DNA of 25,420 bases from contig JALLAP010000039.1 of NCBI GenBank assembly GCA_036939355.1, positions 1 to 25,420 of the forward strand, read 5' to 3'. The position numbers and the translations under genes were made by a program. The notes below the pieces were generated by a model. It was not told the DNA's origin, did no database searches, and worked only from the letters and a program-made list of their open reading frames with translations. Source of the DNA: Thalassiosira profunda (lineage: Eukaryota > Bacillariophyta > Thalassiosirophyceae > Thalassiosirales > Thalassiosiraceae). Shown here piece after piece: positions 7,952 to 25,420 of the stretch. Numbering within the stretch: position 1 is the stretch's first letter; each line of letters starts with the position of its first letter.

Positions 7952-8180
7952 GGGTCGCCGGTGGCGTACTAGCCGGGAGGTGATGGCGAGGCGGCCGCCG
8001 GAGTGCTGTGTTGCGTGTTGCGTGCCGGACCCGGACGAGGACGAGGAAGGCACATCAAACATCAACGCCTTCCCCAGCTTGTCTCCTGCACCGCATACCA
8101 ACCCCTCCCGATGATGGCCGGGGCGTTCGATCGCTGTGGGCGTCGGCGGCGACGTTCGGCTGCAATAATAGTCACATGAT
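7952..8180. promoter_or_regulatory. Divergent promoter region (PC-esterase / unknown anchored protein)
   Basis: 229 bases between opposite starts, or 118 if the esterase begins at 8062. Presumed shared promoter. The stretch just before 8181 (TGCAATAATAGTCACATGAT) is the only A/T-leaning part. Confidence 0.45.
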
Positions 8181-9184
8181 ATGCGTCAAACGCCAGGGCT
8201 TCGGTCGAGCGCACTGAGAGCGTTGCTCGGGTTCACACTCGTGGTCTGCGCTGGCCACAGATATTTGGCAACTATCGATATCGCCGACGATGGGGGCCGG
8301 GGGCTCAAAATCACATCTCGATTCGTCAACGATACGCCTCCCATCGTGCATGCTGCCACCTTTGCGGACGTCCGGACCGCTTCAACTGTGCAATTTAGCA
8401 TCCTGTGCGTGGCCCTCCATCTGCACGTGCTTACCTATCGGCCAGACGCGGCAGATCGGACGCAGTGCTACTTCAGCAATTTTTACGAAGGGTTCAATGT
8501 GGATATGAACGTGCCGCAAGGTGAGAGAAATGGCATCCTAGCGTCACCGCAAATCGCTTGGAATCTCACGGTACCGCACTGCACGCACAACAATTAGTGG
8601 TCAAATCGCACCAACCCCCGCTCCCCCGGCACAGAATTAGGAATACAACACTGATATTCTCCACTGCGAAGACAAGGGAAGAAGCCGGCTGGCGAAGTTA
8701 CGATATTGAGAGGCAGGGATACACTGTGGGGATCATCCAAGATCTGGAAACGCTGGCCGAGATCGGAAGCAATGGTTTCGTGCAACGGTATGCAGAGATC
8801 TTTGATCTTCCCTCGCACCTTATCGAACGCATGCAGGAGTATTTTGTTATTTGGGACAAGCTTCGGGTGTGCTGTGGGCTGCAAATGAGTCAATATTGGC
8901 GATGGGAGCTGAATCACCATGCGGTGAACGAACAAAAGTACCAGAAACCACATCCGTTTTGCAGTTCCGTTGACATCGACGAGGTGGAGCGAGATTTCAT
9001 GAATACCACGCTCTTTGGTCGAATGGACAAGATTCGGGGAGCCAGGACGATCAATAGACCGTCCATGCTGGATAAGGAGCTGACCGGTTCGTACTGTTCG
9101 TGGTACAACGATCTAGTGAGGGAGAAAGCAGTTCCTTTCAACTGCTTCAATCACCCGAACAGTGGCAAAAAATGCTTGGGATAA
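8181..9184 (+). CDS. Unknown type II membrane/secretory protein, two exons
   Basis: Two exons, 8181-8520 and 8598-9184, give 308 aa. ATG at 8181 starts a short basic tail and signal anchor (SALRALLGFTLVVCAGH, about 9-25). The luminal part includes QCYFSNFYEGFNVDM before the splice and, after it, IFSTAKTREEAGWRSYDIER, LRVCCGLQMSQYWRWELN and a Cys-containing end (SYCSWYND, NCFNHPNSGKKCLG). I do not recognise the family. The mid-protein CCG...W pattern loosely recalls CCGLERMW in the DUF3431-like neighbour, but this is weak. Size, topology and position within a run of glycosyltransferase- and esterase-like genes suggest a glycan transferase or sulfotransferase-type enzyme, by context only. Exon joining is well supported because it alone removes the stop at 8597 and keeps frame. 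Tail-to-tail with the next gene, 64 bp apart. Confidence 0.7.
8521..8597 (+). other. Intron (77 nt) in the unknown anchored-protein gene
   Basis: Starts GTGAGAG directly after CCGCAAG and ends CAACAATTAG. It splits a Val codon after its first base (phase 1) and joins the frame beginning at 8181 to the one ending at 9184. The donor is the same GTGAG type as both RAD23 introns. Confidence 0.8.
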
Positions 9185-9248
9185 GCGCAAGGTAAATAAT
9201 CGCCCCTCTCTAGCAGTGTTCACTTGTGGCCGGGGTGTTTTTCTCAGT

Positions 9249-10268
9249 TCACATGCAACTTACCCTCTCGAGATAGTCCCTTCTCTTCATTTCCCAACTG
9301 CGAATGCCAGATCCTTTTCTCTTCGTCAAGTGCAGATGAAACGGTGCCAAGGCAACGGTAACATTCAATTGTGCAAGGAGCCTGGTGAACAGTGCCTCTG
9401 TACTCCGGCCGATGCTGTAATTGAAGCAAGAGCATGACTCCTCCACAATGCTCATGACGGGCCAAGGAGTATTGCCATCGGCAACTGTATCTGCACCATC
9501 AACAGCAGTGTCAATGGCCAAGGGCGGACGGCCACGAAAATAGGCTTCTTGGTGCAACTTCGGCACCACCGCCACCATATCATCGACAAAGCCGCAGACT
9601 GTGTGGACACGAGGATTGAACGGAGGCGGGCTCGTCGTCGGATCGAGGTTTGTTCTGCACCTCCCAGGCTCGCAGGCCGTCCACGAGATTTGTCCATAAG
9701 TTAGGTTGATCATGCCTTGAACCTCCCGCGCCCGCGTCAAAACATGTTGATTGGAGAAAGGCAGCGGAACGGGACTACCCCACAAATTGTCTGGGCGGGT
9801 CTTGACAATGTAATCATACCGCGGAAAGCTGCCCCCAAAACGATCTTCAATGCTGTCGTAGCAAACTCGGATTCTCTCGAACTGAGGGTGAACATAAATC
9901 GCGTTCGACCCGACCTCGTATGACCAAAACTGGACGTTGTAACCAAGAGGGCCGGCCGATGTCACATTCTCTGTCAAATTACTGTCGAGTTGGGATTGCC
10001 CGATGCAGAAGAATACGTCTACTTCGTCGTAGCGTTGCTGCAGTGGAGCAATAACATTTGTTTGGATGGACGCCCAGACTTGTAACCCGTTTTCGTTCCG
10101 AACGCCGCCAACAATCATGACCGCAACTCGTGTTGTTCGCGACGCAGGGCCGCTGGTGCCGTCCGCATCGGCTTCGTCGATCGTCGAGAGTTTGGAAAAC
10201 CCGGTGTAGCTCACAATGAAGCACACGAGCAGCCACCGCAATACGCTCGGACGGCGAACGATGCCCAT
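9249..10268 (-). CDS. Signal-anchored glycosyltransferase-like protein (TRPD-motif family)
   Basis: 339 aa. Short basic tail MGIVRRPSVLR followed by anchor WLLVCFIVSYTGF (12-24). The luminal domain begins with RVAVMIVGGVRNENG (about 47), a beta-strand/loop typical of the start of a nucleotide-sugar-binding GT-A fold. Next come DEVDVFFCIGQS (about 80) and PRYDYIVKTRPDNLWGSPVP (about 150-168), which resembles the Y-D-x-h-x-[KR]-x-R-x-D motif of uncharacterised eukaryotic glycosyltransferase-like families where the Asp sits near the donor site. Several NxT/S sequons occur (LTENVTSAG, MINLTYG, CFNYSIG), consistent with a Golgi lumen location. A later FVDDMVAVVPK may form another acidic site. Exact family and linkage are unknown. 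Divergent from the GT32 gene. Confidence 0.7.
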   Translation of the reverse strand: MGIVRRPSVLRWLLVCFIVSYTGFSKLSTIDEADADGTSGPASRTTRVAVMIVGGVRNENGLQVWASIQTNVIAPLQQRYDEVDVFFCIGQSQLDSNLTENVTSAGPLGYNVQFWSYEVGSNAIYVHPQFERIRVCYDSIEDRFGGSFPRYDYIVKTRPDNLWGSPVPLPFSNQHVLTRAREVQGMINLTYGQISWTACEPGRCRTNLDPTTSPPPFNPRVHTVCGFVDDMVAVVPKLHQEAYFRGRPPLAIDTAVDGADTVADGNTPWPVMSIVEESCSCFNYSIGRSTEALFTRLLAQLNVTVALAPFHLHLTKRKGSGIRSWEMKRRDYLERVSCM

Positions 10269-10673
10269 CGCGGGGCAACAGCCGCCGCGGTCAGCGCCGC
10301 TTGTGCTTGCTACCTCCCCGGCTCGCCCGGATCTAGTAATACTCTAAGTAGATAGAAAGATACATCAATTTCTATTTTCTTATTCTTATGTGTATTTTGT
10401 GAATAACTCAACTATTGCTGCCATCATTTCTCTAAAACCTTGCTGCACTAACTTCAGGGCACGCCCGCAGAAAGGAGGCGAGGAGACGTTTGACAGCCAA
10501 GAGCGGTCGGGGCGGCGGAGCGGCTGTTTGGTTGGCGGCTAGCACCCGGGCGGCGGTCCAGAAATGCGGAGTTTTGTTGAACGTTGAAGGGGTGCAGTGG
10601 CAGCTTCAGGTCTCTTGGGTGGGGCTGGCAGTTAGCGGAGGCGGCGGAGGATTAGAGTTGCAAATTGCAAACA
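10269..10673. promoter_or_regulatory. Divergent promoter region (GT-like / GT32)
   Basis: 405 bases between opposite start codons. The middle, about 10330-10440, is strikingly A/T-rich against GC-rich flanks and holds runs such as CAATTTCTATTTTC, a plausible nucleosome-poor core shared by both genes. The 10490-10670 side is G-rich. No classical TATA consensus is placed convincingly. Confidence 0.5.
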
Positions 10674-11774
10674 ATGGGGTGGGCGCGCGCTGTTGTGCCC
10701 GTCGCCATCGTGCTATTGACGTGCCTGGCGGTGCGCATGTCCATCTTGCTGGGGTCGAATTCGACGTGGCCCATATATAGCGACGATGCGGGCGCGCTGC
10801 CGACGGACTCGACGAGCACTGGGGGATACCTCACGATCGGGGAGCTCACGCGCAATCCCCCCGCGGGGAGCATCATTTGCCCTGAGGGGTTGTTCCCCGT
10901 GTACGATCGGATAGTCGACGAGGGCAGCGCGGCGAATGCCGCCGTCCCGCCGAGGAAGATACCGCGGACGATCCACGCCTCATTCAAGACGCGGTGCGTT
11001 GCCCCCGACACGTACCTTGCCCTCCGGGCGTGGAAGGATGCGCTCCCACGCCACTCCTTCTACTTTCACGACGACGAGGCCGTGGATAGGCTCTTTAAAA
11101 TGCCGTGGGAGATGTTTCCACAGCTCCGGCTATTCATGAAATGCGTCCGATTCACGGGGGCGATGAGGATCGACGTCTGGAGGCTGCTTGTGATATACCG
11201 CTACGGGGGGCTGTACACCGACGTCGACAACGTCCCGAGCGAGAAGTTCACCGAGGCGGGTCCCATCGGCGCGCACGACGATGCCTTTTTCCTGTCGGAT
11301 TCATGGAACAGACCCTCACAGTGGTTTTTCGCCATGACACCGCGCCATCCCATCGCCTACTTTGCCCTCTTCAGTGTATTTGTCAACCTGCAAAAGCTCG
11401 AGAGCATCGAGAGGCCATCGGTGGTGTTCGTGACCGGACCGGACGCGCTTAAGAGGGGGTACGGCGATGCCCTTGGCTGGAAAACCAGCGTAGGCGACGG
11501 AAAAGACATCTTCGCAGAAGGAACGCACCGATGCAAATGGGGCTCAAACGTGACGAAGCTACTGGGAAAGCATGGTCATATCACCCAGTTGAATATGAAC
11601 GAGATGGTAGACTTCAATGGCACCAAAGTTCCACGGAAAAAGAGGATGGAACACCTGCACAAAATGAAACACTGGGTGGACCAGAAGAATACCAAGAAAA
11701 TCGAGTTCGACGGGAGCTGCATGGACTATCTTTATGTCCAGGAACACGGTCAGAATGTCACTGCTGCAGGGTAA
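10674..11774 (+). CDS. GT32-family (OCH1-like) glycosyltransferase
   Basis: Type II Golgi glycosyltransferase, 366 aa from the ATG at 10674 (context CAAACAATGG). Anchor VVPVAIVLLTCLAV lies near the N-terminus. The catalytic domain follows the GT32 pattern: IPRTIHASFKT (about 96), W..ALPRHSFYFHDD, KCVRFTGAMRIDVWRLLVIY (about 157), then RYGGLYTDVDN with the DxD metal and sugar-nucleotide motif at about 182-184. Beyond it comes FFAMTPRHPIAYFAL, equivalent to the family's 'temporary/transient object' segment, and VVFVTGPDAL. Members transfer hexoses (mannose in yeast Och1; galactose or GlcNAc in others) to glycoproteins or glycolipids; the sugar cannot be read from sequence. Only 12 bp separate its stop from that of the convergent DUF5672-like gene, so the 3' ends must overlap as transcripts. 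Confidence 0.9.
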   Translation: MGWARAVVPVAIVLLTCLAVRMSILLGSNSTWPIYSDDAGALPTDSTSTGGYLTIGELTRNPPAGSIICPEGLFPVYDRIVDEGSAANAAVPPRKIPRTIHASFKTRCVAPDTYLALRAWKDALPRHSFYFHDDEAVDRLFKMPWEMFPQLRLFMKCVRFTGAMRIDVWRLLVIYRYGGLYTDVDNVPSEKFTEAGPIGAHDDAFFLSDSWNRPSQWFFAMTPRHPIAYFALFSVFVNLQKLESIERPSVVFVTGPDALKRGYGDALGWKTSVGDGKDIFAEGTHRCKWGSNVTKLLGKHGHITQLNMNEMVDFNGTKVPRKKRMEHLHKMKHWVDQKNTKKIEFDGSCMDYLYVQEHGQNVTAAG

Positions 11775-11786
11775 CAAAATTGGCTT

Positions 11787-13217
11787 TCACCCTCCGCCTC
11801 TCTCAAAGAGATGATCTTGGATGTATTTGCAGCGCTTCATCATTTTGGGATAGTAAGACGGCTCGGAGTTTTGCTTTTGTCGCGATGCCTTGTGAACAAA
11901 AAGCGGCATTGCGTGCCCGTCCTCGCGCAGCGTGGTCCGATAGATGTTGACACCTTCTGGTCCCCAGTATTTGGCAATCAATTTGTCCTGCTCGCCCTCT
12001 GTCTGTGGCCCAGCAACCTCGAGCACTTTGTCTGGCATTGTCGTATCAATGGTGAAGAGGGACGCTACAAAGGGAGTAGGGACCGGCGCCTTTGTCAGCT
12101 TCGATACCACGGAGTGATATGTGTCATCCACTATATCGCCTTGAAACATGGCGCAATTGCTTTCTCGCCAGTGAGCTTCGCCCAGGCCCGACCAGAGCTT
12201 GTGCGGGCAGGTTTTTATGTTGCGCTGCATCCACTTTCGGCTCCTCAAAGAGACACCACCGTTGCCCACGACGAACTTGCTAGGAAATGTTTCAGTGAAG
12301 TTGTCGGCGAAACGATGTACCTGCTCTCCGTGTCCCCAGTCTGCTACGAACGTTTTGCCTTTGACATTGTCCAGCCACCCTTGCATCTTCGATATCCAAC
12401 GAGGCCCGCGGAGCCAAGAGGTGATCGGACCGCCAATCCATGCAAAAGAACGCCATGGCTCAAGATCCTCGTTGGACAGGGGTCTGCATAAAGCCCCGTC
12501 CCGCTCAAAGAATAGGACCTGATCGCTGTCAATGCCCTCAATGAATTCCGACGCATAGTAATCGACGTTGAACCACGCCGGGAATGTTGGCCTGCCCAAG
12601 CTCCAGCAGGACTGAAATTTGTACTTTCTGTAATCGAGGATGGACACCCGCACCCGCCCACTATCCATGCGCTGTCCGAATATGTCCCCGACTCTTTCGC
12701 GAATGTTCTGGTAAAGTGCATCTTGAAGCACGCCGGTAGGAATAGTGCGGTTGTGCATCCGTATTTCCTCCTCAATTGTTGAATCTGGGGCGATGGCTCC
12801 CCAATCCCCCGGCAGGGGAGCAGTCTGCCGTTCGTGCCCCTGCAGGAGGTGATATTCCATCACGCACGAGGTGACCTGCAGAACGAAGCACGTGTCCGTA
12901 GGGGCGTACTCGCCCAAACTCTCAAGGGCAGACGTGTACATCACGTCGTCTTTCGGGAAGAACGGGATGCGCGGGTCCATCAGCAGCACCGTCAATGAGC
13001 ACGACGTCACATCCGGCCCGTATTGGTTGTGGCTGGCGTTGTCTTCTCCCCTGCGGGTCAATAACACATCCGGGTCAAGGTCGACGGAGGAGGCTGACTG
13101 AACGCAAAGGAGATCGTTGAGCACCGACACCGGCCACGCGATTGCAATTAATGCCACAAAAGTCCTGCGATATTTGCCCCTTTCGCGATGCTGGCGGTGA
13201 TGATGTGTGCTCGACAT
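11787..13217 (-). CDS. DUF5672-like type II membrane protein, probable glycosyltransferase
   Basis: 476 aa from the ATG at 13217. The frame is open for 201 bases further upstream, but that extension lacks any membrane or domain signal and includes sequence next to the promoter repeats, so I exclude it. N-terminus MSSTHHHRQHRERGKYRRT is a His/Arg-rich cytosolic tail, then FVALIAIAWPVSVL anchors it. The luminal part contains a DUF5672-type core: FAWIGGPITSWLRG (about 258), FVVGNGGVSLRSRKWM (about 315-330) and, after it, HWRESNCAMFQGDIVDD, matching the family order of a W-I-G-x-P strand, GNGG-S-LR and a downstream acidic E/D segment. DUF5672 members in fungi and algae are regarded as glycosyltransferase-like; activity here is inferred. 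Family confidence moderate to good. Confidence 0.75.
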   Translation of the reverse strand: MSSTHHHRQHRERGKYRRTFVALIAIAWPVSVLNDLLCVQSASSVDLDPDVLLTRRGEDNASHNQYGPDVTSCSLTVLLMDPRIPFFPKDDVMYTSALESLGEYAPTDTCFVLQVTSCVMEYHLLQGHERQTAPLPGDWGAIAPDSTIEEEIRMHNRTIPTGVLQDALYQNIRERVGDIFGQRMDSGRVRVSILDYRKYKFQSCWSLGRPTFPAWFNVDYYASEFIEGIDSDQVLFFERDGALCRPLSNEDLEPWRSFAWIGGPITSWLRGPRWISKMQGWLDNVKGKTFVADWGHGEQVHRFADNFTETFPSKFVVGNGGVSLRSRKWMQRNIKTCPHKLWSGLGEAHWRESNCAMFQGDIVDDTYHSVVSKLTKAPVPTPFVASLFTIDTTMPDKVLEVAGPQTEGEQDKLIAKYWGPEGVNIYRTTLREDGHAMPLFVHKASRQKQNSEPSYYPKMMKRCKYIQDHLFERGGG

Positions 13218-13580
13218 GATATGTTGCAGCGCTGAGGCGCCACCTGGATGGCGCCTCCCGCTCGGCAAAGGTGGCGCTCTGCAGGGGGGTATCTTCTTTG
13301 CAATCAGAGCTTTCCAATGGCCGCCCCAGATGCTGTTAGGAGAAACTTTGTCCCACAGAATTGCAAGTCTGCAGCTGCCGCGTCGAACCTCTAAATCAGC
13401 CCCTCGACCCTCGACCAATGACCAGTAGACTCTAAATCAGCCCCTCGACCCTCGACCAGTAGCCCCAGCGCCGCAAACAACTCTCAGGAACACAGACCAG
13501 GCACCAACAACGTTGTTATGCAGCAGACGTGGCAGCGCTGGCGAAGGAGCAGCAGAAAGTAGTGCAATAGAGCTCGAGCT
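13218..13580. promoter_or_regulatory. Divergent promoter region (DUF5672-like / SGNH hydrolase)
   Basis: 363 bases between opposite starts. It contains the 29-base direct repeat described separately and otherwise a C-rich, poorly structured leader. There is no convincing ORF beyond the upstream extension of the DUF5672-like frame. Confidence 0.5.
13389..13458. repeat. Direct repeat, two 29-base copies spaced 41 bases apart
   Basis: CTCTAAATCAGCCCCTCGAC, continuing CCTCGACCA, occurs at 13389-13417 and again, identical, at 13430-13458. The spacer ends in GACCAGTAGA and the second copy is followed by GTAGCC, so GACCAGTAG recurs too. It may be a recent tandem duplication in a divergent promoter or a paired regulatory element. 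Confidence 0.85.
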
Positions 13581-14471
13581 ATGAGATTCGTCCTCCGCTG
13601 GATTGCATCATCCACGTCTCGTGCCTCTGCCGCGAGGAGAGCTGCGGTCACGATACTTGCTTTCCTCGTCCATTCGAATGGTGCTTTGCTTCCAAGATGG
13701 AGTGCAGATGATCATAATCAAGATAGGAATATGCTTGATACGGGAAAAGGAAAAGATAATCATGCAATCAGCAACGAAACAATATGGTTCGTGGGCAACT
13801 CAGTCTCGCGTATACACGCATTTTCTACGGCCGCGATGCTTACCGGGGATTCAAGCTTTACCAGCGTGTCCAGAGCCGACCAGAAGAAACTCTGCGGGAG
13901 AGGGGGGACTTTTGGTGGGTCGAGGCCGGGCCAGGGCAAGTGCTTTGGCGCGTGCGGATGCATAGTCTCGGAAGCGCAACCAAAAGTTGGATTCGTTTGG
14001 CAACAACGCATTTTTGACATTCGACTGAGGGAGATTCTGTTGGGCCACGATGAGAGTTATAAGATTGTGAGTGGCGATGTGGTGATATTAAATATGGGAC
14101 TTGACGACATCGCCATTCATGCGAGCTGGGAAGAAAGGATTGCAGATGAGGCTGACAATTTAGTTGCGACGCTCCAAGATGCAAGGGATGCCGGCCGTCG
14201 TGTCCTCTTCAGATATACGACACCGCTTTGCAGCGGACATGGCGCACGTGAGGTGTGGGATATGACATTCGATGAAGCCAACGACAAAATCCGACGGTCA
14301 AATGACAAGTTGTGGTCTATAATTGGACCGTCGGTCGCTGCCTTGTCTGTGAAGGCGAATTGTTCAGAGTATACAGACCTCGTTCACCCAAATATGGGAT
14401 TGGCAACTCGACAAGTGCAACAACTGTTCGACAGGATTCAGGAATCCTATCAACTAAAAGTTTTCCTCTAG
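13581..14471 (+). CDS. Signal-anchored SGNH/GDSL-type hydrolase
   Basis: 296 aa, uninterrupted. An Arg-rich start (MRFVLRWIASSTSRASAARR) leads into AAVTILAFLVHSNGALLP, an anchor or cleavable signal. SGNH blocks appear in order: block I IWFVGNSVSR with nucleophile Ser74; a Cys-rich insertion (KLCGRGGTF...GKCFGACGC, about 105-132); VVILNMGLDD near 171 in the block III position with Asn; and DLVHPNMG with Asp266 and His269 as the catalytic D-x-x-H. Members hydrolyse or transfer acyl groups on glycans or lipids. It is shorter than the PC-esterase at 6488 and lacks its beta-sandwich region, so the two are probably different subfamilies acting in the same pathway. Paired cysteines suggest disulfides and a secretory location. 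Substrate not predictable. Confidence 0.8.
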   Translation: MRFVLRWIASSTSRASAARRAAVTILAFLVHSNGALLPRWSADDHNQDRNMLDTGKGKDNHAISNETIWFVGNSVSRIHAFSTAAMLTGDSSFTSVSRADQKKLCGRGGTFGGSRPGQGKCFGACGCIVSEAQPKVGFVWQQRIFDIRLREILLGHDESYKIVSGDVVILNMGLDDIAIHASWEERIADEADNLVATLQDARDAGRRVLFRYTTPLCSGHGAREVWDMTFDEANDKIRRSNDKLWSIIGPSVAALSVKANCSEYTDLVHPNMGLATRQVQQLFDRIQESYQLKVFL

Positions 14472-14615
14472 ATGCTTTGTGGTTCTGGCCAGACCTACCA
14501 CTTCCGCGGCGTCGAATTTGCAGCTCTCGCCATTTGAATGAACCATTGTCCACAACCTTCACTCCTTTGCTGCTCAAACAGCAGTCTTTTTTACTTGCAG
14601 AGACCATCCGTGGCA
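14472..14615. other. Convergent 3' intergenic gap
   Basis: 144 bases between the stops of the SGNH hydrolase and ATG12 genes, presumably both 3' UTRs. Nothing else seen. Confidence 0.5.
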
Positions 14616-15146
14616 TCATCCCCATGCCTCCTGCAAGGCATAATGAATCACCAGCTCCCCCCGCGTGCCGAAGCAATCAAACAAATCCCTCAGCCGTTCG
14701 TCGGGCGACGGGACGAACGCGGCGTTGACGTAGAGGAACAGCGCGCTCGCCGCTGCTCCCCCCGACGCGCCGTTTCCGGAGGAAAGCTTCAGCACCTTCC
14801 GCAAGAACGCGATGGCCACCGCGAAGCGATCGTCGCCGTTCATGAGGAACTTGGACTTTTTGAGGATGGGCGCGCTCCCCACCGCGACCAGGTGCACTTT
14901 GATCTTTGAGGGCTTTGGCGTGTCGACTGCTTTGGCGGGTCCTGCCCCTTTGCTTGTTGTTGCGTCGTGTGATTTCGATTTGTTGCCAATATCCCCTCCG
15001 CCCCCTTCTTTTGCGCTCCCTCCTGGCGGTGACGTGCCTTCCCCTCCGCCCCCTTCTTTTGCGCTCTCTCCTGCCGGCGACGTGCTTTCCCCTCCGTTTG
15101 GAGCCTCATCGGACTTCTCGCAGCTGTCAGACGGCGGCGAAGCCAT
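14616..15146 (-). CDS. ATG12: Ubiquitin-like autophagy protein ATG12
   Basis: Ubiquitin-like modifier that is conjugated through its C-terminal Gly to ATG5; the conjugate with ATG16 promotes lipidation of ATG8 on the growing autophagosome. 176 aa. Residues 1-80 are low-complexity and contain a duplicated 16-residue unit ending SAKEGGGG. The ATG12 fold follows from about 82: KVHLVAVGSAPILKKSKF (beta-hairpin with the conserved APILK block), FAVAIAFLRKVLKL helix, a short Gly/Ala-rich insert, then SALFLYVNAAFVPSPDERLRDL, FDCFG, ELVIHYALQEAWG and stop. The chain ends exactly at Gly176 after Trp, the family's required terminus, so no processing is needed. ATG at 15146 begins a continuous frame. The N-terminal half is the variable part in all homologues. 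It shares a divergent promoter with RAD23. Confidence 0.95.
   Translation of the reverse strand: MASPPSDSCEKSDEAPNGGESTSPAGESAKEGGGGEGTSPPGGSAKEGGGGDIGNKSKSHDATTSKGAGPAKAVDTPKPSKIKVHLVAVGSAPILKKSKFLMNGDDRFAVAIAFLRKVLKLSSGNGASGGAAASALFLYVNAAFVPSPDERLRDLFDCFGTRGELVIHYALQEAWG
14993..15088. repeat. 48-base tandem duplication in the ATG12 N-terminal coding region
   Basis: Two adjacent units (14993-15040, 15041-15088) share CCCCTCCGCCCCCTTCTTTT, then GCGCTC, and differ at a few positions; a partial third CCCCTCCG follows. It adds 16 residues in frame (unit ending SAKEGGGG). Confidence 0.8.
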
Positions 15147-15650
15147 GTTCTATCCTGCTATTCGAGGGCCGATGCAGCTAGGTGGATGTGCCCATTGGTT
15201 GCAGTTTGCAGTTGCGCCTCGCTGCTGCTGGGGCAACGCCAGTGCGCACAAAACCGCGGCCTCGCGCCTGTGCCCCCCCCTCGTCGGGTACACGCGTGGT
15301 TAGCAATGCTCGCACGCCCGTCCCCGGCCGAATGGTTGCAGCCCTGCCCCGGTGCCCGCCTTTCCTTCTGGTGCTCGTCTTGCTCCCCGCCCGCGCTGCA
15401 GGCAGTGCGCCCTGTGCTTTGCGTTGATGTCATAGGTAGGGTTAACCTAAAGTTACCACATCTTGTGGCTAAAAGTACGTGTTCACGTCATTGCAATACC
15501 CACATTAGTGTATCATCTACGATACCTTTCAGGTGGACCCCTACCTGACTCCCAATCCCCACTGCACTGTCCACTGTTGATCAGCCGTCGTCCTCGCCGG
15601 CCAGCCCCCACGCACACCGACGCCTCAGCCGCGGCCCTAGAACCAACGCC
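15147..15650. promoter_or_regulatory. Divergent promoter region (ATG12 / RAD23)
   Basis: 504 bases between starts. The part near 15440-15530 is A/T-richer and holds GGGTTAACCTAAAG, the inverted repeat CCACATCTTGTGG (arms CCACA/TGTGG, at about 15458-15470) and CACGTCATTG. Short ORFs crossing it look random. The two genes serve autophagy and the proteasome, so shared control is plausible but not shown. Confidence 0.5.
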
Positions 15651-17456
15651 ATGAAACTCGCCGTGAAGACCCTCAAGGGGGGCAAATTCACCATCGAGGT
15701 GGAGCCGTCGAACACCGTCGCGGAGGTCAAGGGCGTCATTGTGAGTGGGCGGACGGTCGAGTTGTCGATTGCCGTTGGTCGTGGACGGAGGCAGATCCAA
15801 TATCTTTGGAGGGGGCGGGGCGGGGGCAGAGACGATGGCGGGCTACTGCCGGGGGATGATATATAAATATTTGCTGGAGGAGGGGGCGTAATAACGGGGA
15901 TGGACGGGGGTCGGCGCGGGGGCGAGGGGAGGGGAGGCTCATCGCGTCACAATTCGTATCTTTGTTGGCGCGGCCAGGGGGAGCAAGATGTCAACCTCTC
16001 ATGGAGTGGCCAGCAGGGAATGCACTTCCTGATCATCCTGATCATTACGCCACTATTACAATCTGACGCCTCTCTCGCTCCCCATTACTCGTGTCCAGGA
16101 AACGAACAAGTCCGAGCTCCCCGCGGCCAGCATGAAATTGATCCACTCGGGCAAAGTGCTGAAGGACGACGACAAGATTGAGAGCTGCAACATCAAGCCG
16201 AACGATTTCCTCGTGGTCATGATCGCCAAGGTGAGAAACCATTGGGGCTGTATCTTTGGTGCAGACGATTCATTTGTTGGCAAAACTGATGATTTTCATT
16301 GGGGGAATAGGCGAAGAAAGCGCCAGCGCCAAAGCCGGCTGCAGCCGCCCCTGCTGCGGCTGCCTCGGCGGCGGTCCCGGCCACTCCCGCGGCCACCACC
16401 GCCAACCCTCCCACGCCTGCGGCCCCCGCCCCGTCCGGATCCGCGGCCACTGCCACGACGCCTGCTGCGGCCACTGCGTCTGCGGCGTCGGACGTCGGCT
16501 CTCCCGCGGAATTCCCCGCGGAGGTGGTGAACAACCTCAAAGCGCTGGGCTTCCCCGACTCGGAGGTGATGGCCTGCCTCCGGGCCGCGAACGGCAACGC
16601 CGACCTCGCGGTGGAGTTTTTGATGAACGGCATTCCCCCCGGCATTCCCACTGGCGGAGCGGCGGCGGCCCCGGCGGCGGGGGGAGCGAGCGCGGGAGCG
16701 TCCGGGGGAAGCGGGGGACCTTTGGAGGCGTTGCGGAGCCATCCCCAATTCGATGCCCTGCGACGCCTCGTGCAGACGAACCCGAGCATGCTCCAGTCCG
16801 TGTTGCAGCAGATTGGCACACAGCAGCCGGAACTGCTGCAGGCGATCAACGCCAACCAGGCGGCCTTTTTGGAAATGATGAACGAGCCCGTGGCCGATGC
16901 TCCCGCCGCCCCCGCTGCCGGGGCGCCACCCGCGGCTGGAGGAGGGGCCGGCGGGGCGGTCAACCCCTTCGCCGGCATTCCCGGCATGGAGGCCCTCGGA
17001 AACCCGGCCCAGCTCTCCCAAATGCTCCAGGCCATGCCGCCGCAGGAGCAGCAGGCCATGGCGCAGATGATGGGGATGGACGTGAACCAGCTCCAGCAGC
17101 TCGCGCAGGTCATCGCCGCGATGCCCCCGGAGCAGGTCCAGCAGCACATGAACATGGCGATGCAGGCCCAGGGCCTCGGGGGGATGATGGGCGGCGCCGG
17201 AGCGGGCGGCGCCGGCATGGGAGGGCCCCAGGTCCTGCGCCTCTCGGAGGAGGAGATGGCCGCCGTCGATCGGTTGACGGAGATGGGATTCGATCGTACC
17301 GAGGCGGCGCAGGCGTATCTGGCGTGCGACAAGAACGAGGCGCTGGCGGCGAACCTTTTGATGGACGGGGGATTCGGGGGATTTGGCGGCGGTGGAGGGG
17401 ACGCGGATATGGGCGGAAATGGCGGCGCGGGTGGCGATGATGACATGTACGATTGA
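15651..17456 (+). CDS. RAD23: RAD23: UBL-UBA proteasome shuttle / nucleotide excision repair factor
   Basis: Carries ubiquitylated substrates to the proteasome and stabilises XPC/Rad4 in nucleotide excision repair; nuclear and cytosolic. Exons 15651-15740, 16099-16230 and 16311-17456 give 455 aa. The UBL domain at 1-74 (MKLAVKTLKGGKFTIEVEPS ... LIHSGKVLKDDD ... NDFLVVMIAK) is split by both introns. An Ala/Pro-rich linker leads to UBA1 (about 142-185, VVNNLKALGFPDSEVMACLR), the XPC-binding domain (about 211-267, LRSHPQFDALRRLVQTNPSM ... AFLEMMNEP) and UBA2 (about 386-429, VDRLTEMGFDRTEAAQAYLA). Between XPC-binding and UBA2 there is an unusually long Met/Gln-rich segment (about 290-370), resembling ubiquilin-type STI1 sequence more than usual RAD23 linkers. 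Splice joins are unambiguous, as the UBL reads through in frame. The C-terminus ends in a Gly/Asp-rich tail. Tail-to-tail with the BRCT gene, 159 bp apart. Confidence 0.95.
15741..16098 (+). other. RAD23 intron 1 (358 nt, G-rich)
   Basis: GTGAGTGG to CTCGTGTCCAG, phase 0, interrupting the UBL after VKGVI. Its sense strand has several runs of four or five G (about 15808-15935) and an isolated TATATAAATAT at 15860-15870. It is over four times longer than the other introns here. Confidence 0.93.
16231..16310 (+). other. RAD23 intron 2 (80 nt)
   Basis: GTGAGAAACC to GGGGGAATAG, phase 0, directly after MIAK at the end of the UBL domain. Removing it joins the UBL to the Ala/Pro linker in frame. 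Confidence 0.92.
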
Positions 17457-17615
17457 GATCAGAATCTGTAGCAACTGGCTCCATTTGGAGGTAGGGGGTT
17501 TTGGTTGGTTGTCAAAGTGTAGATGAGCAAGGCTCGTTGACTGTTGCACTTAACTCCACATACGTTTCGCATGAAATCCCTTTTATTGATGCCATTCCTC
17601 TATGTAAATGAATCC
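17457..17615. other. Convergent 3' intergenic gap
   Basis: 159 bases between the RAD23 and BRCT-protein stops; A/T-rich relative to flanks and presumably both 3' UTRs. Nothing else seen. Confidence 0.5.
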
Positions 17616-20600
17616 TCAACATTCATCTGAGTCCTCCTCGTCGCCAAGGGTAACGAACACTTTCTTGGGCTGATTTCTCTGGGGCGATTTCGGGAGGTTG
17701 TGGAGACTGCACTTGGGCGACTTGCGTGCGCTCCCCGTCTTTCTCCGCTTTGCGCTGCCTGAACTTTCTTGGCTCTCTTGGCTCTCTCCGTTATGCAGTG
17801 CGGCCTCTGCGTGTGATGTGACCATGAGTGGCGAGTACATCGGATTGCTGCTCTTTCTCTTTTTGGACGATGCCCTTGGAGAGAGGAAGGCTTCGGCTCC
17901 ATCGGCCATCTCCGGCGGCGGGGCAGCACACTTTTTGCCGCTTTGGTTCTGACTGCTGCTGCTGCCCTGCGATGGTTCTCCTACGGCCAACGATGACTGA
18001 GAGTGCCTCGGTGTGGGAGGCTTAGAGTCGTTGCCATGCGGCCTCTTGCGGCTGCTCTGGCTGCTCTGGCTTCGGCTTCCTTGTGAGCTGGGCGCCTCGA
18101 GGGCCTGATACTCTGACTGGCCCAGGCCTTCCGCATCCCGGAGCACTCGCAATCTTTCCTCGAACCGCTTCTCTCTTTGTCTGAGCTCCCGTTTCATCTT
18201 TGCGAGCTGCTCCACGTCCAACAAGTGCGTTTGCTCCCTTTGGACGAGCATTCTCTCCCGCGCTTGGACTTCGCTCTCTCTCGCCAGCATCGATTTGTGC
18301 TCGACCTTGGACTCTTCCAAACGGGCAACCTTTTGCTGCAGTTCCGTCTCGCGTTGAGCAAGCGCCAAGGTATCGACCTGAAGCTGGCTTTCTTTCTTCA
18401 TCAGCTGGTCTGCCGCTCCCTCCTTCGATGTGTAGCACGCAAAGGATTGACGGCCGGCATTGGCACTGCACGAGAAGGATGCCAAGTTGATGTCCGCGAA
18501 GATATAGCGGGAGTTGTGTGCCGACAGGTCCTCCAAGAATTCAACAAGGTCGTCGCTGCCTGAAAGCTCCTGCAGGACGCGGTACGACCATACGAAGGAC
18601 TGCATGCGACTGTCCCCGTCATCTTCCGATGCAGCGACATCCAGCAAGTTGATGGGATACTGCACTTTGAAAGGAGCGCACTTCCGCTTGCGGGCAGGAG
18701 CCAAGTCCCCAACACACATCAGGGCATCGATCAGCGAACACCACGAGAGGGATCCCCTCAGGAACAGATTGCCCTTGATCAATGGCTTGGCCGCAAACTC
18801 AACCGATCCATCTGCCGGGGCATTCAGGGAAATGTCGACGCCTCCCGTCAAAAGAAGATGAATGACGTTCGCAAGGCACTGGTAATCGTGCTCGTAGTGC
18901 GTTTCTTGGCATTGCTCTTCGCAAGTCAGCACGAGAGATTGGTGACCGAATCCAACCAGCTGCAAGAACCACGAGCTGCTCTCATCGTCGCCGCCTTTTC
19001 GTCTCTTCTTTTTGTTTGAAGCACGCCTCACAACCAGAAACGAGTCCAGGCCAATGTCGTTGTGCGTCACTCCAAGCAGGTGAATCGCACTCACGGCCTC
19101 AATGGCCTGAATTGCCAGCGTCGCAATGACTTGCTCGGGAATCATGCCCGACGATTGGTGCTGCTGATGAAGAGAAAAGACGTCTTGCAACGTCCCAAAG
19201 ACTTCGCAGCCGTCGTTGTTGGTAGTCAGGTACAGCTGTTTGCTCTGGGCATCCTCTTGCTTCGCCCGCCCATCACTACTGATGGAGGTTGGACGCGGAA
19301 AGAAATCGCCCACCGGCTTCGCAGCGCTCGACTCCAGATCTTGCGAGCGGTTTGCCAATGTGAAGAGCACATAAGCCTCGAAGCTCACGTATGCGTTGTC
19401 CTCTACCAGCAGTTTGCGGCTCGTTGCAGAAAGAGACGGACCACTAGCTTTCGTCGCAACTTTGGGGGTGGTCGACGATACAAGTGGGCTGATGGAGCGA
19501 TTCCGGCCACGCAGGCAGCGAACGCCTCGCTTCTTCTTTTTCCCTGCTTTTGGCTTCGTGTGGGCAGACTGAGACCCAAAATACTGCATCCACAAGCCGT
19601 GCGTCTGCGACGCAGCCTTGTCCTGTGCTGCCGAGGAGCCATCCGCCGTAGCCAGCACGCTTTGATACAATGACAGGAATTGTTCTCGTGTTGTGGCGCA
19701 GCTGTGAGAGGATGGCGGTTGGGATTGCTCGAAAGTGAGTTTCTTCTTTTGCAGCTTGGACTTGGAAGGGGAGTACGTGGCTCGCTCCAGGTGAGACACC
19801 CTCGAGCCTCGGGTGGCCGAGCTTCGAACTGACGCATCATCGGCGGGCGCAGAATGGTGGCGAGCGGCGTCGGTAGCACTTCTTTTGACCGGCGACGCTG
19901 TCAGGACAGATACGGAATCGCCGTCTCCCTCTCCGTTGTCGTCAATATCAATACCAAACAGATTTTGGGTGATGATTGTGTGGAATAGCCAGGATGTGGA
20001 CAGCGCCTTTGCCCCAAGTCGTTCGGCTTTGGCGACTCCGGCCTCCTTACGTTGGGCTGCCGTGCAGGGATCGCTCGTGAGCATAATCGTTTTCAGCGGG
20101 TCGAACGACCGTTGGTTGGTCAGCGATTTGAGGATCTGTCCTCCCGCCGCATCGACGATCAAGTGCAATTCCTTCAGGCTGGGAGCCTTGTTCCCAGCCA
20201 CGCCGGAGCAAATGTAGACGAACCAGCCCCCCAGGACGCCGCCTCTCCTCCTGCGGGCGACGATTCCATTTTGGATGGTTTCCTTCATGCTGAAGTCATA
20301 TCGTTTCTCTGCTTCTCTGTCGCCGAGGAGGAGGAAGGCGTCGGTATCCAGAACGCGCTGTTCCTTTGCGGACTGCTCGAGCCATTCGTAGCTCAGGATG
20401 TTGGGCACCCTGCAGATGCACACCATCAGCTTTGGCGTGCGTCTCAACTTCGTCCTGCCGCCGCTCGCGATGACGTGCGTGGCCGTGTGAGCTTCCTCGA
20501 TCGAGCCGACGAATTCGGCTCCAATTGTGTCGATCATCCTCATATGCTTGGAAGTGGCGGTGATGCCGGTGAACATAACTCGGACCGTGCCTTTCGATTC

Positions 20601-21887
20601 GCCGCGCTTCCTCGTTTTGACCATGGCATAACCCTCCTCGCTGTCCTCGGGAGGGCGTGGCGTATTCACGACACCCGGAGACGTGTCATCTTCTTCCAAA
20701 GCTTTGTCTCCATTCTCGTCACCATCTCCCTGCTCAGCGGCTTCATTGCCATCAATCACTTTTGCTATCCTTTCCTCATCTGCCTCGTCTTCGCCATCAT
20801 CGTCGGCTTCTTCGTCCGCACCTTCCGGAGGACCCATCGACCGCGTGACCCGGCGAGGACTCGCCTCTGCCTCCTCCTCCATCGCATCATTTGCCGTCTG
20901 CGTTTGATCGACCGGCAGAAACGACCACTTCTCGTCATCCTGCATGTTCAGGCCGTCATTCTCCACTGGAAAGTCGACGGGCATTTCGTCCTTGGCCACA
21001 TTGGTCTTTGGTGTGCCATTCTCGCCCTCATCAGGCGACGTTTCGGCCTGCAGCGCATCCATTCCATCGGCTTTGGTCGCACCATCGACATCCGTGTTGT
21101 TCGCGGGGCGCTTCTTGCGACGAGCGCGGTACTTTTTCGTGGGGGAGACGTCGTCGGAGCGAGCGTCGGTTTTCTCCCCCTCCACTTCCTCGGGCTGTGT
21201 GGCGAGCAATTCCTTTTCCGGACTGTCCCGAGCATCGGTGGGGTCGGCGGGCTGTGTTTGGAGCGCATCGTCGGACTCCCCCTCGTCGTCGTCCCCCCGC
21301 CCGCCCTTCTGCATACGTCCCTCTCCCCCCGACTCCCCGGCCGCCGCCGCCCGTAAGCTCCCCTCGTCCAGCCCTCCGTCGCCGCGGAGCGCGGCCGCCC
21401 GTCCCACGACCTCGAAGACGAAGTCCAAATCTCTACGCTTCCCCACCGACGTCGCCGCGAAGAGGCGCTGTCGCAGCCGCTCCTCGAAAGCGTCGTCGTC
21501 GTCGTCGTCACCAACTGCGCGTATCGTTTGAAGAGTCACAGCGGCGAGCTCGAGGGGGGTGCGGGACGTTTCCATGCGGAGGCACGCGGCGGCGCACCGG
21601 CGGTAGAGCCACCGGGCGTGGGGGGTGGCGTCGCCCGCGGTGGCATTTGTCGTTGTGGTCGCGCCCTCCTTCGCCTCTGCCTGCTCTTCGACGTCCATTT
21701 GCTGCACGGCTTCCGGGGCCGGCACCGGTCGTTCCGGCGGGTCGGGCGACAGCAGGGGCTGCGACTGCAATAACTCCTCCTCCTCCTCCTCACTGTCCTC
21801 GCCATTTTCATCCACTGGCGGCGCAGCGACTTCGGCCTCCTTCGCTGCTTCCCCTGGTGGCACCGTCAATTCGTCTTTGCCCTCCCC

Positions 21888-21921
<34 letters not shown>

Positions 21922-22586
21922 ATCGCATTCCCCGCCCCCTCGACGTTTTCCCCCAAAGGTGCGGCATTCCCCGCCCCCTCCAGGGACGGCGCGAGCCCTT
22001 CATCCCCCACCTCCCAATTTCCCGCGTGGAAGGAAGTGGGAGGAGGCGCCCGGCGATGGATCTCCGGCACCGAGAAGGAGTGCCCGAACTGGAGCTTGTC
22101 GAGGCTCTCCCGCGCCATGGGCCGGATGCTCATTTCGTTGGGTGGCATTGCCGCCGTCTTTAGCGTGGGGGGAGAGGCGATGGATGCAGCTGGTGGGTTG
22201 GCAATTGTCGCCCCCGCCGCACCTGCTTCGTCGGCATTGTTGGCGGCCGCCGCGTGCGATTCCGCAGGGGGTGGTGCCGCGGCAGAGCGCTCCAAATAAT
22301 TGTCTCCGCCCCGCCCGCCCTCCAGCGACATCCTCCCCGCCGCACCATCAATTTCCTCCACCGCCTTCTTCGCGGGCGAGGGGCTCTCGAGGGACATGGA
22401 GAAGTTGGCGAGCGGGCTCTCCTTCGCCTCGGCGGGCGGGGCGTGCGAGGCGCCAACTCCGCCCGAAGCAATGCCACCATTATTTTCACCGCTGCCGACG
22501 CCCGCAGCGGAGGGAGGAAAGGACCTCCGGCCGCCCCGCCCCCTCCCCCGCCGGGGGACGATATCGATGCCGTGCACGCGGGGCAT
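17616..22586 (-). CDS. Tandem BRCT (MDC1/PTIP-like) protein fused to a Bub1-like pseudokinase domain
   Basis: One uninterrupted 1656-residue frame from the ATG at 22586. Residues 1-660 are disordered and acidic, with poly-Ala and L-x-[S/T]-Q-P sites near 273, 441 and 459. Tandem BRCTs follow: BRCT1 about 667-749 (TVRVMFTGITATSKHMRM ... VPNILSYEWLEQS) and BRCT2 about 780-874 (GGWFVYICSGV ... LSTSWLFHTII). The FTG and downstream Lys (RTKLRRTPKLM) match phosphate-contacting positions of MDC1-type pairs. About 1057-1300 resembles the Bub1 kinase fold: YLTTNNDGCEVFGTLQDV, MIPEQVIATLAIQAIEAVSA, then THNDIGLDSFLV in place of HGDIKPDNF and VGFGHQSLVL in place of DLG/DFG, then HYEHDYQCLANVIHLLL. Loss of the catalytic Lys/Asn and metal Asp indicates a pseudokinase. 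A coiled coil (about 1392-1487) and an SQ-rich, basic C-terminus end it. Likely nuclear DNA-damage or chromosome-segregation scaffold. BRCT assignment strong, Bub1-like assignment moderate. Confidence 0.85.
21889..21921. repeat. GCT trinucleotide microsatellite (11 units)
   Basis: Eleven GCT triplets on the + strand. On the coding (-) strand they encode an 11-Ala run in the disordered N-terminus of the BRCT protein. Likely length-polymorphic. Confidence 0.9.
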
Positions 22587-22990
22587 CGTCGCGGCGCACC
22601 TTTGTGGAAGAGGAGCGGCGGATTCCCCCAGTCTTGTTGGTGTTGGTGTTAGCGGGGGGGGGGAGGAGGGATGGGCGGGAGGAGGGAGGATAACTACTTA
22701 CAATACGTACTTTCTTGACTCTACCCCTAGATAGGTACCTTCGACAAAGCACAAGCACAAGAAGGCCAAGGGCCAAGGCGAGCAGGGAGCAGCAGCGCAA
22801 GGGACAGAGAGTAGCGGCGGCGGCGGCGGCGCGAGCGATCCCTGCAGCCTTGCCCATAGGCGCCGTGCTTTACTTGCGTGGGGTGTGTGAAATGCACATA
22901 TCTTGTGGACAGGCAGGCTGCCTTGGCTGTGTTGCTTAGGCCAACTTAGACTGGGGACGTGCAGATCTTCTGGTTGCAACAATAATAATC
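22587..22990. promoter_or_regulatory. Divergent promoter region (BRCT protein / duplicated-domain protein)
   Basis: 404 bases between starts. A G-tract cluster at 22654-22689 lies about 70-100 bases upstream of the BRCT-protein ATG. An A/T-leaning core (about 22690-22740, CTACTTACAATACGTACTTT) follows, then GCACATATCTTGTGG near 22894-22908, sharing TCTTGTGG with the ATG12/RAD23 promoter. Confidence 0.5.
22654..22689 (+). other. Potential G-quadruplex-forming tract
   Basis: Ten consecutive G, then GGG runs at 22668, 22673, 22677 and 22684 separated by 1-4 bases, all on the + strand. This satisfies the usual four-run G-quadruplex pattern within a divergent promoter. Confidence 0.6.
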
Positions 22991-25342
22991 ATGCCGTCCA
23001 AGGTCCCCGACGCCCCGCCCGCGCCAGCCAAAGAGGGGGGCGATGGCGTGGACAGCGGCCAATCGCAGGCGATGGACCTGGATGCTAATATTGATGGAGC
23101 CAAATCAGAGGCGTCGCCGACTGAGGGAGGGGATGCTGCGGGCAACGGGGGTGGCAACCCTGTTGTCGCTGATGACGGAGCAGAGAGCAAAAAGCGCAAG
23201 GAAGACGAGCCGGACGACTCCTCTGCGCCCTCTGCCAAGAAAGCGAAGGAGGCGCCCCTTCCGACAAATGCGCAGCAGCAGCTTGCCGACATGCTGGCCA
23301 ATCAGCAGATGATGAACCTCCAGGGGATGGCTCCCATGCACCTCCAGCAGATGCAACTGCAGCAATTCATTAACCTCCAACAGATGGCCTATGCACAGCA
23401 AATGATGAACATGAATACCTTGAATGCCATCAATGCCTTGAATTGGGGGAGCCAGCTTCCTCCCGGGCTGGGCGCCCCGCAACGCATGGTCACTGTGATG
23501 CAAAGGATGGTGGCTTCGACGGGGGGAAACGTTCATCACGTTGTCCTCACCCTGCCGCCGCCGAAAACGAAGCTTGGGATGATCCTCGATGACAACCAGA
23601 CGTATAATTTGCCACAACTGATGGGCCTGACACCCGCCTCGCCCATGCTGCATCAGTTGCCCCTGTCGAAGGATTGCTGCATCGCCTTGTTGAAGGGGGG
23701 GGGCGTCGGGCACGCCCAGCCCAAGACCGCGGCGGCGTGCGCGAAGTTGATCTCCAAAGCGCAAAAGGGGAAACCCCAGCCGGCGAAATTGGAGGTGGTC
23801 TTGATCGAAACGAAGAGGAGCAGCAATGCTTTCTTGGGGTCCAAGGCCGACGGCGAGCCACACAAGAAACGGGCAGGGGGGAAGCCGGGGAGGAAGCCCC
23901 GAGCGGAGCAAATCGAGTTCGACGTGCTCAAACGGCAGGCGTTGCTAGAGTATTTCAGCGACCCCGCCATCAGCAATACGTACGCTTATTGCCAAGAGAT
24001 CGGCAAAGAGAATTTCCGGTCGACAATGGAGCGGCTCATAAAGAAGGACAGCAAGCTGGCCAAATTGGAGGGGCAGCGGCACGTTCCCGCCCGGCGGAAG
24101 GAAGCGTACGCTATCATCGAGAAAATGTTTCCTCCCAACGCCGCGGAGGATGCCAAGGACAGGCTGGAGGAGGCGCGGAGGCTGAGGAGGTTCCTGCTCG
24201 GCTTCTTCGGTGGCACCGCTTCTCTGGACGCGTTCTGCAATGCGAAGAAGATTGGCGCTGCCGACCGGCGGGCCATCATGAGGTTCTTGGACCGGGAGGG
24301 AAAGTTGGCCAAACTGGTGGACCGACGGCTCGACCCAAATCGGCGCGAGGAGGCGATCGATATTATCAAGAAGGCGTTCGAGGATTCCGACTCGAATGAT
24401 GAAGAAGAACAGTTGGAGAACGACTCTGACCAGAAGCAAGAGGGCAAATCAACCACTTCCTCTGCAAAACAAGCTGTTCTCCCGGAACGCAACAACTTCT
24501 TTTCACCCGAGAACCTTTCTCTTATCGCTGAGAGCCTTGACTTTAAGGCTCGTCCTCGGATGTCCCGCGATGGTTCCAAAGAGATAGCGCTGAACGACCG
24601 CAAGGTCCCAGACGAACACTTGACGCTGCTCATGATAGATTTGTGCAACAGGGTATTGAAGGGAAGATCCTTGTCATCGAAGGGCAGAAGCACGACCATG
24701 ACCAACTGCGTCAGAGTGCTCTTTTATGACCACGGGTACAAGGAGGCGACGAAAATGTCTGGGCTCATCAACAGCAACAAATGGGAACAGCGCCTCGAGG
24801 ATGCCTACATGTCTGGGGCAGACCAGCATCCTCTCGCGAAGCTGGCGATGGGCAAAGATTCATACACTGACAAGATCGAGCAGGACCATCCGGGTCTGTT
24901 GGCGCGGTTGCATGCGCAGGCGGAGGAGGTGCTTGGGAGTGATGCTGGAGCTGCAGAAAAAGCAATGCTGATGAACGAGATTTCAATGGAAGAGGCTTGC
25001 GATGACCCTTTATTTCCTGTGCTCGATATGAATAAGCAGACGCTCAGGAAGTGGGAGCTGGCGCAGAAGATACAGGAGCAGCCAGGAGGAGGCAAGAACG
25101 GCTCGGCGCAACCAAAAACGGAAGAGAGGTCCATCTGTCAGATCGAGAAGAAGCATCCCGATCTCATCGAAGGACTATATCATTTTGCGCTGGACGCGTT
25201 GGGTCCGGACGCTTCCTATCACCTGCTCGCAACGTGCATGAACGAACGTGCGAAGGAAGCTGTGGAGGCGGATCCCAACCTCCCATTGGTTACAATGTCG
25301 AAGCAAACCCTTCCTGCCTGGCTCAAGAAACAGGAACTGTGA
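22991..25342 (+). CDS. Unrecognised nuclear-type protein with two kinds of duplicated domain
   Basis: 783 aa, no family recognised. Order: acidic, Pro-rich start with basic nuclear-localisation-like clusters (SKKRKEDE near 67, KKAKE near 80); Met/Gln-rich stretch about 93-150; a region about 177-275 with PKTKLGMILDDN and ASPMLHQLP that faintly recalls a PDZ fold; an AT-hook-like GGKPGRKPRAE near 297-307. Two homologous helical units follow at about 314-378 and 400-462, sharing LL-x-[YF]F, C..(E/K)IG, [DG].KLAKL and P.RR.EA..II.K.F. After an acidic linker there is a unique region about 500-615, then a second duplicated type at about 624-700 and 714-783, sharing I(E/Q)..HP.L...L, LG.DA, MNE and M.KQTL..W. 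AT-hook, NLS and Q-rich segments suggest a chromatin or transcription factor; that is inference. ATG at 22991 follows A/T-rich AATAATAATC. Confidence 0.75.
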   Translation: MPSKVPDAPPAPAKEGGDGVDSGQSQAMDLDANIDGAKSEASPTEGGDAAGNGGGNPVVADDGAESKKRKEDEPDDSSAPSAKKAKEAPLPTNAQQQLADMLANQQMMNLQGMAPMHLQQMQLQQFINLQQMAYAQQMMNMNTLNAINALNWGSQLPPGLGAPQRMVTVMQRMVASTGGNVHHVVLTLPPPKTKLGMILDDNQTYNLPQLMGLTPASPMLHQLPLSKDCCIALLKGGGVGHAQPKTAAACAKLISKAQKGKPQPAKLEVVLIETKRSSNAFLGSKADGEPHKKRAGGKPGRKPRAEQIEFDVLKRQALLEYFSDPAISNTYAYCQEIGKENFRSTMERLIKKDSKLAKLEGQRHVPARRKEAYAIIEKMFPPNAAEDAKDRLEEARRLRRFLLGFFGGTASLDAFCNAKKIGAADRRAIMRFLDREGKLAKLVDRRLDPNRREEAIDIIKKAFEDSDSNDEEEQLENDSDQKQEGKSTTSSAKQAVLPERNNFFSPENLSLIAESLDFKARPRMSRDGSKEIALNDRKVPDEHLTLLMIDLCNRVLKGRSLSSKGRSTTMTNCVRVLFYDHGYKEATKMSGLINSNKWEQRLEDAYMSGADQHPLAKLAMGKDSYTDKIEQDHPGLLARLHAQAEEVLGSDAGAAEKAMLMNEISMEEACDDPLFPVLDMNKQTLRKWELAQKIQEQPGGGKNGSAQPKTEERSICQIEKKHPDLIEGLYHFALDALGPDASYHLLATCMNERAKEAVEADPNLPLVTMSKQTLPAWLKKQEL

Positions 25343-25420
25343 TTGGCCAGGCTGTTGACAGGCTGCGAGAATCTGACGAGTCTAGCTCTACATAAAACAA
25401 CAAATACTTTGCAATGCATA

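Follow-up and report, generated by a model that had tools for sequence, protein, structure and literature searches.

Can a single diatom gene join a reader of DNA-damage chromatin marks to a relative of a spindle-checkpoint kinase, and what might its product do? The question is raised by a 25,420-nucleotide stretch of the Thalassiosira profunda genome (contig JALLAP010000039.1 of assembly GCA_036939355.1; hereafter, "the window"), in which a first-pass annotation had proposed that one frame fuses a tandem BRCT pair of the MDC1 type to a Bub1-like pseudokinase. We find that both domains lie in one reading frame, that the same arrangement recurs in several diatom genera, and that both domains are under purifying selection between two copies of the gene. 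The reading we favor, to which we assign a probability of about 0.5, is that the protein is a thalassiosiroid chromatin-bound scaffold, in which a BRCT pair reading phosphorylated H2A (gamma-H2A) and an inactive, Bub1-derived platform would link DNA damage and mitosis.

One reading frame, kept in two copies of the gene

The coding frame runs on the minus strand from 22586 to 17616, from ATG to stop, and encodes a protein of 1656 amino acids (P0001) with no internal stop, so that the continuity proposed for this interval holds; the same codons read as a plus-strand frame contain several stops. The stop-free run around it measures 1693 codons, the runner-up in the window being a run of 1027 codons that holds a chitin synthase, and the closest in-frame stop 5' of the ATG is a TAA 37 codons upstream. 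This ATG is supported by the N-terminus MPRVHGI, which is common to the homologues P0017, P0021 (as MPRIH) and P0039 and to a second copy of the gene on contig C238.

The C238 copy is 90% identical and its frame is intact. As the flanking DNA matches too, it probably represents a close strain or the other haplotype. The ratio of nonsynonymous to synonymous substitution rates (dN/dS) between the two copies is 0.275 overall, and both main domains are under purifying selection (0.106 for the BRCTs and 0.200 for the pseudokinase). Elsewhere the ratio is 0.124 for an RGR motif (residues 1011-1054), 0.136 for residues 321-410, 0.185 for residues 1381-1480 and 0.147 for the C-terminal tail (1481-1656), with 0.530 for residues 1-320, 0.375 for 411-656 and 0.478 for the linker at 881-1010. 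The two copies also differ in arrangement: window positions 15581-22607, holding the fusion gene and a RAD23-like gene, are inverted relative to C238:7592-14497, and the flanks (14585-15529 and 22970-25420) keep their orientation. The inverted block is either an inversion polymorphism between the copies or an assembly error, and no long inverted repeat was seen near its ends.

The fusion in other diatoms

By BLAST, 34 of 49 homologues carry both domains in the same order (35 of 50 with P0001), the BRCT pair being cut short by the sequence start in some; the pseudokinase stands alone in 6 of the 50 proteins, all fragments of 432-635 amino acids, and the BRCT pair in 9. One-gene models of the fusion exist in five named species. 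The named homologues come from Skeletonema marinoi and dohrnii, Cyclotella atomus, meneghiniana and cryptica, three Thalassiosira, and Mediolabrus comicus; one species was checked in each of these four genera, and all belong to Thalassiosirales. The suggested search of related genomes thus finds the same fusion, and the association is far above chance, because 34 of 49 homologues share the order and both domains are under purifying selection. Absence outside Thalassiosirales cannot be claimed, because candidates were collected by exact words and about 8000 were scored. Only BRCTs appear among the Pfam domains precomputed for the homologues, and the second domain has therefore been overlooked by current annotation.

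These observations bear on the simplest alternative, that the apparent fusion is two genes read through or an artefact of assembly. It would have to explain why both domains sit in one predicted protein in 34 of 49 homologues and in gene models of five species, why the linker is in frame and carries a conserved motif, and why the frame is kept in two genomic copies; we regard it as very improbable.

P0039, labelled Alexandrium tamarense, has a BRCT pair nearly identical to that of P0020 and an N-terminus of the diatom type; its BRCT 1 seems to include part of an intron left unspliced, and the protein may stem from diatom contamination. A second diatom family (P0031-P0038) has a BRCT pair 59-65% identical to that of the fusion, with the same four phosphopeptide-contact residues, but with a different N-terminus and no pseudokinase; the pair lies near the C-terminus, downstream of several TQxF-like repeats which we take to recall the RNF8-binding repeats of human MDC1. 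This family may be the diatom MDC1 itself; searching the Thalassiosira profunda genome with P0034 did not turn it up. In an unrooted tree of the BRCT pair (37 rows), eight BRCT-only rows join the Cyclotella-type fusion rows, P0020 and P0039 (98/98), so that either fusion or split may have come first.

A BRCT pair with the contact residues of MDC1

BRCT 1 (residues 657-753; 20328-20618, minus strand, as are all features of the protein below) matches Pfam PF16770 at E 1.3e-6 and MDC1 and PTIP in PDB, and BRCT 2 (residues 788-876; 19959-20225) matches PF16589 at E 2.4e-6. Against PDB, the single protein finds MDC1 (E 5e-11) and a family profile finds PTIP (1.3e-18), MDC1 (6e-11) and yeast Mdb1 (0.009). 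The pair had been described as a phosphopeptide reader on the strength of an FTG motif and a downstream lysine, and the domain matches and residue conservation agree. In the alignment to the MDC1 structure 2azm, T673 of the FTG at residues 672-674 (T673-G674, 20565-20570) falls on MDC1 T1898 of the phosphate pocket, and R715, R716 and K719 of the RRTPK at 715-719 (20430-20444) fall on R1932, R1933 and K1936. Among rows that reach the column, R715, R716, T717 and K719 are each kept in 26 of 27 fusion-type and 9 of 9 BRCT-only proteins, and T673 in 12 of 14 and 9 of 9; the exceptions may be truncated sequences.

MDC1 is described as binding the gamma-H2AX phosphate with T1898 and K1936, its R1932 and R1933 contacting the residue at +2 and the carboxylate at the C-terminus (PMC4013092). 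As all four contact residues are conserved, the natural prediction from sequence is that the diatom pair reads a phosphorylated H2A tail. H2A itself was not recognised in the assembly; an H2B-like protein is among its three histone-fold matches. MDC1, PTIP (PAXIP1) and Mdb1 share the tandem BRCT arrangement; in contrast, the diatom pair lies in the middle of the protein, with the Bub1-like pseudokinase C-terminal to it. The FHA domain found at the N-terminus of MDC1 was not detected in P0001 by Pfam to E 10.

The second domain is closest to the Bub1 kinase fold among those compared

The second domain spans residues 1055-1380 (18447-19424) and was assessed by profile searches, an AlphaFold2 model, Foldseek, VIA-align and hhalign. 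The first-pass annotation had seen in it the layout of the Bub1/Mad3 kinase and had suggested profile searches and structure prediction as a check; these return a kinase fold with Bub1/BubR1 ranked first. The model, built from a 41-row alignment, has a mean predicted local distance difference test (pLDDT) of 73 and a predicted template modeling score (pTM) of 0.76. It supersedes one built from 15 rows only (pLDDT 49), with which Foldseek gave kinases without a Bub1 lead (6jkk at rank 22). The Bub1/BubR1 kinase is the top kinase both by sequence profile and by Foldseek, where TM-scores are low, and VIA-align places Bub1/BubR1 first among 1000 chains by a modest margin (Z 15.2-14.7, next 13.7). 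Single-protein Pfam searches for Pkinase give E 0.14 for P0001, 9e-4 for P0021 and 4e-3 for P0003, with no match listed for P0017.

The hhalign comparison with human BUB1 extends over 199 columns, from alpha-C through alpha-G, and includes the WExY motif of alpha-C. It matches the alpha-C helix NxxxTWEAYVLFTLxxR (residues 1065-1084, with the conserved E1070; 19335-19394) to BUB1 NPWEFYIGTQLMERL, and the alpha-F-like segment HDYQCLANVIHLLLTGG (residues 1233-1249; 18840-18890) to BUB1 IDYFGVAATVYCMLFG. As a control, 25 kinases from the same genome (of 30 loci) were compared, and none outscored the pseudokinase or aligned over more than 122 columns. Ahead of the kinase fold, a helix at residues 990-1008 (19563-19619; model residues 6-24) is predicted with confidence (mean pLDDT 93 in model block 11-20). 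In the model it appears to sit where the N-terminal extension of Bub1 aligns; the human Bub1 rows start with residue 752 of Bub1 placed on model residue 1, but the alignments of some other kinases start at that model residue too.

A pseudokinase of another family, such as Ste20/PAK, could have come to resemble Bub1 by convergence once the first N-lobe strands were lost, in which case the protein would be an MDC1/PTIP-like mediator carrying a generic pseudokinase. Against this, Bub1/BubR1 heads every ranking, and the hhalign match to BUB1 extends from alpha-C to alpha-G, while PAK4 aligns around the catalytic loop over about 40 profile positions. We consider convergence unlikely. Calling the domain Bub1-like is justified, and we infer that it descends from Bub1.

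Catalytic residues are lost across the family

The altered motifs to which the first-pass annotation had drawn attention are found at residues 1174-1183 (THNDIGLDSF) and 1211-1214 (VGFG), and column counts over a 50-row alignment, in which nine rows lack the domain and a few cells are possibly misaligned, indicate that they typify the family. In the degraded catalytic loop (HNDIGLDSF, residues 1175-1183; 19038-19064), the catalytic Asp column 1177 holds D in 25, N in 10, E in 5 and H in 1 of 41 rows. The loop Lys position 1179 is G in 25 of 42 (S 8, T 5, N 3, V 1), and the metal-binding Asn position 1182 is S in 41 and A in 1 of 42. GFG replaces DFG at residues 1212-1214 (18945-18953), the DFG Asp position being G in 39, N in 1 and C in 1 of 41. 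The alpha-C glutamate E1070 is kept in all 36 rows with a letter there; no conserved Lys precedes alpha-C at 1050-1068 in the alignment, and strands beta1-beta3 are missing from the AlphaFold2 model. None of the features of an active kinase (Gly-rich loop, beta-3 Lys, HxDxKxxN, DFG) was found. With the catalytic residues replaced, no conserved beta-3 Lys and no beta1-beta3, the domain is expected to be inactive across the whole family.

Relation to Bub1, BubR1 and KKT14

The alpha-C WE motif, the catalytic-loop region and the alpha-F pattern of Bub1/BubR1 all align with the diatom domain, which is closest to this kinase fold among the chains compared; vertebrate BubR1 is likewise described as a pseudokinase (PMC5204127). 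Unlike Bub1 and BubR1, the diatom protein has no TPR, ABBA motif, conserved KEN or (in the model) beta1-beta3, and it has gained a BRCT pair. The TPR region (Mad3/BUB1 homology region I, PF08311) is not listed for P0001 by Pfam to E 10; among the 11 fusion-type proteins longer than 1200 amino acids, none has an ABBA motif and four have a KEN, P0001 not being one of them. Because TPR, KEN and ABBA are wanting, placing the protein inside the MadBub family is not justified. KKT14 of kinetoplastids is described as a Bub1-like pseudokinase with an ABBA motif and without TPR or catalytic residues (PMC11286163). The diatom protein differs from it in lacking ABBA, in having a BRCT pair, of which the consulted part of that report makes no mention for KKT14, and in belonging to another lineage. 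KKT14 is absent from the Foldseek and VIA-align rows shown, which is evidence neither way. By titles and the beginnings of abstracts, no such protein with BRCTs and a Bub1-like pseudokinase stands among the open-access literature matches listed. What is new in the fusion is the combination, its parts being of known kinds.

These comparisons raise the possibility that the protein is, in the manner of KKT14, the diverged Bub1 (MadBub) of these diatoms and works at kinetochores, not at breaks; the BRCT pair would have taken over from the Bub3/KNL1 route and would read a kinetochore protein in its phosphorylated form. TPR and catalytic residues are missing from KKT14 as well (PMC11286163), and Mdb1 reaches spindles without gamma-H2A (PMC4013092). 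The gene content of the genome points the same way: no separate Bub1-like kinase was found, human BUB1 in tblastn giving other kinases only and not the fusion gene (best matches E 1.6e-6, 32% identity, query 5-142 of 301, on two contigs). The Mad3/BUB1 region I profile (PF08311) and HORMA proteins such as Mad2 were likewise not found, and as neither was matched in any control genome, nothing firm follows. A Mad1-like match is present over the cut-off (E 4e-24), a profile that also gives sub-threshold matches in 4 of 14 prokaryote controls, as can happen with long helices, and the Ndc80 match is weak (E 1e-3, under the cut-off).

Such absences count for little in this assembly (21.8 Mb in 1366 contigs), which looks incomplete, because it yields no HORMA protein and just three histone-fold matches; the suggested search for a separate Bub1/BubR1 returned none, a weak absence for this reason. 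Genes annotated as BUB1 and MAD2 are reported from a pennate diatom (PMC7296067), so Thalassiosirales may well possess a separate Bub1. The gamma-H2AX contacts, moreover, are retained in all four positions, and the 11 long members have no ABBA, unlike KKT14. On balance, we view the kinetochore explanation as doubtful.

A proposed scaffold between DNA damage and mitosis

In the scaffold reading that we prefer, the tandem BRCT pair would, like MDC1 and Mdb1, read histone H2A(X) phosphorylated at its C-terminal SQ tail, and would thereby place the protein on chromatin around DNA breaks. The Bub1-derived domain, without catalysis or the first N-lobe strands, would serve as a protein-binding platform. 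The likeliest setting would be where the damage response meets mitosis, with a Bub1-type partner surface held on damaged chromosomes, so that breaks would be marked or tethered through division, or anaphase delayed. Such a setting has precedents: BubR1 is reported to coat the tethers of broken chromosomes in flies, MDC1 and BubR1 to interact in human mitosis, and MDC1-TopBP1 to bridge breaks in mitosis (PMC6770852), and yeast Mdb1 is described as acting at breaks and on spindles via its phospho-binding residues (PMC4013092). A more specific version, which we offer tentatively, is that a gamma-H2A reader with a Bub1-family pseudokinase forms a dedicated mitotic break scaffold, one protein doing the work that in animals is divided between MDC1 and BubR1 (or MDC1 and TOPBP1); the fusion may even be the sole Bub1-family member in these diatoms.

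Other segments and neighboring genes

Outside the two domains, a segment WLYxRC..KRDLxFVFEV (residues 321-410; 21357-21626) is conserved in the long homologues (dN/dS 0.14) and, at a guess from sequence, looks helical; in five members searched with Pfam to E 10, four had no match there and the fifth an irrelevant one at E 0.1. The motif GVRCxRGRxRSxSPLV (residues 1021-1037; 19476-19526) is conserved between the helix at 990-1008 and alpha-C. A highly charged segment free of Pro and Gly (residues 1396-1485; 18132-18401) is perhaps one long helix; a coiled coil was considered there but finds no support, as 211 of 2000 shuffles gave a heptad signal at least equal to the observed one. In alignment, the C-terminal tail (residues 1615-1656; 17619-17744) is conserved as PKKVF(I/V) followed by hydrophobic and acidic residues, a pattern which we take to resemble a SUMO-interacting motif.

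Tail to tail with the fusion gene lies the RAD23-like gene (16524-17456, plus strand), with an XPC-binding domain (E 5e-23) and UBA domains; Pfam lists no ubiquitin-like domain for this frame. The chitin synthase (110-3085, plus strand) matches PF03142 at E 1e-165 and a cytochrome b5-like domain, PF00173, at E 3e-13. Between them, positions 5068-14471 hold Gly_transf_sug, DUF3431 and DUF5672 matches (glycosyltransferase-like or of unknown function) and a sub-threshold GDSL match, and two frames there have no Pfam match at E 0.01.

Conclusions

If its parts work like their relatives, this protein would couple DNA damage directly to a scaffold for cell division. In animals, MDC1 and BubR1 are two distinct proteins, and the crosstalk between damage signalling and the spindle checkpoint is described as unsettled (PMC6770852). 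A natural fusion kept by selection in several diatom genera would imply an advantage in uniting the two, and it would offer a one-protein test system. Thalassiosiroid diatoms would also be the second lineage, after kinetoplastids, in which the Bub1 kinase fold is found as a pseudokinase outside the usual MadBub architecture.

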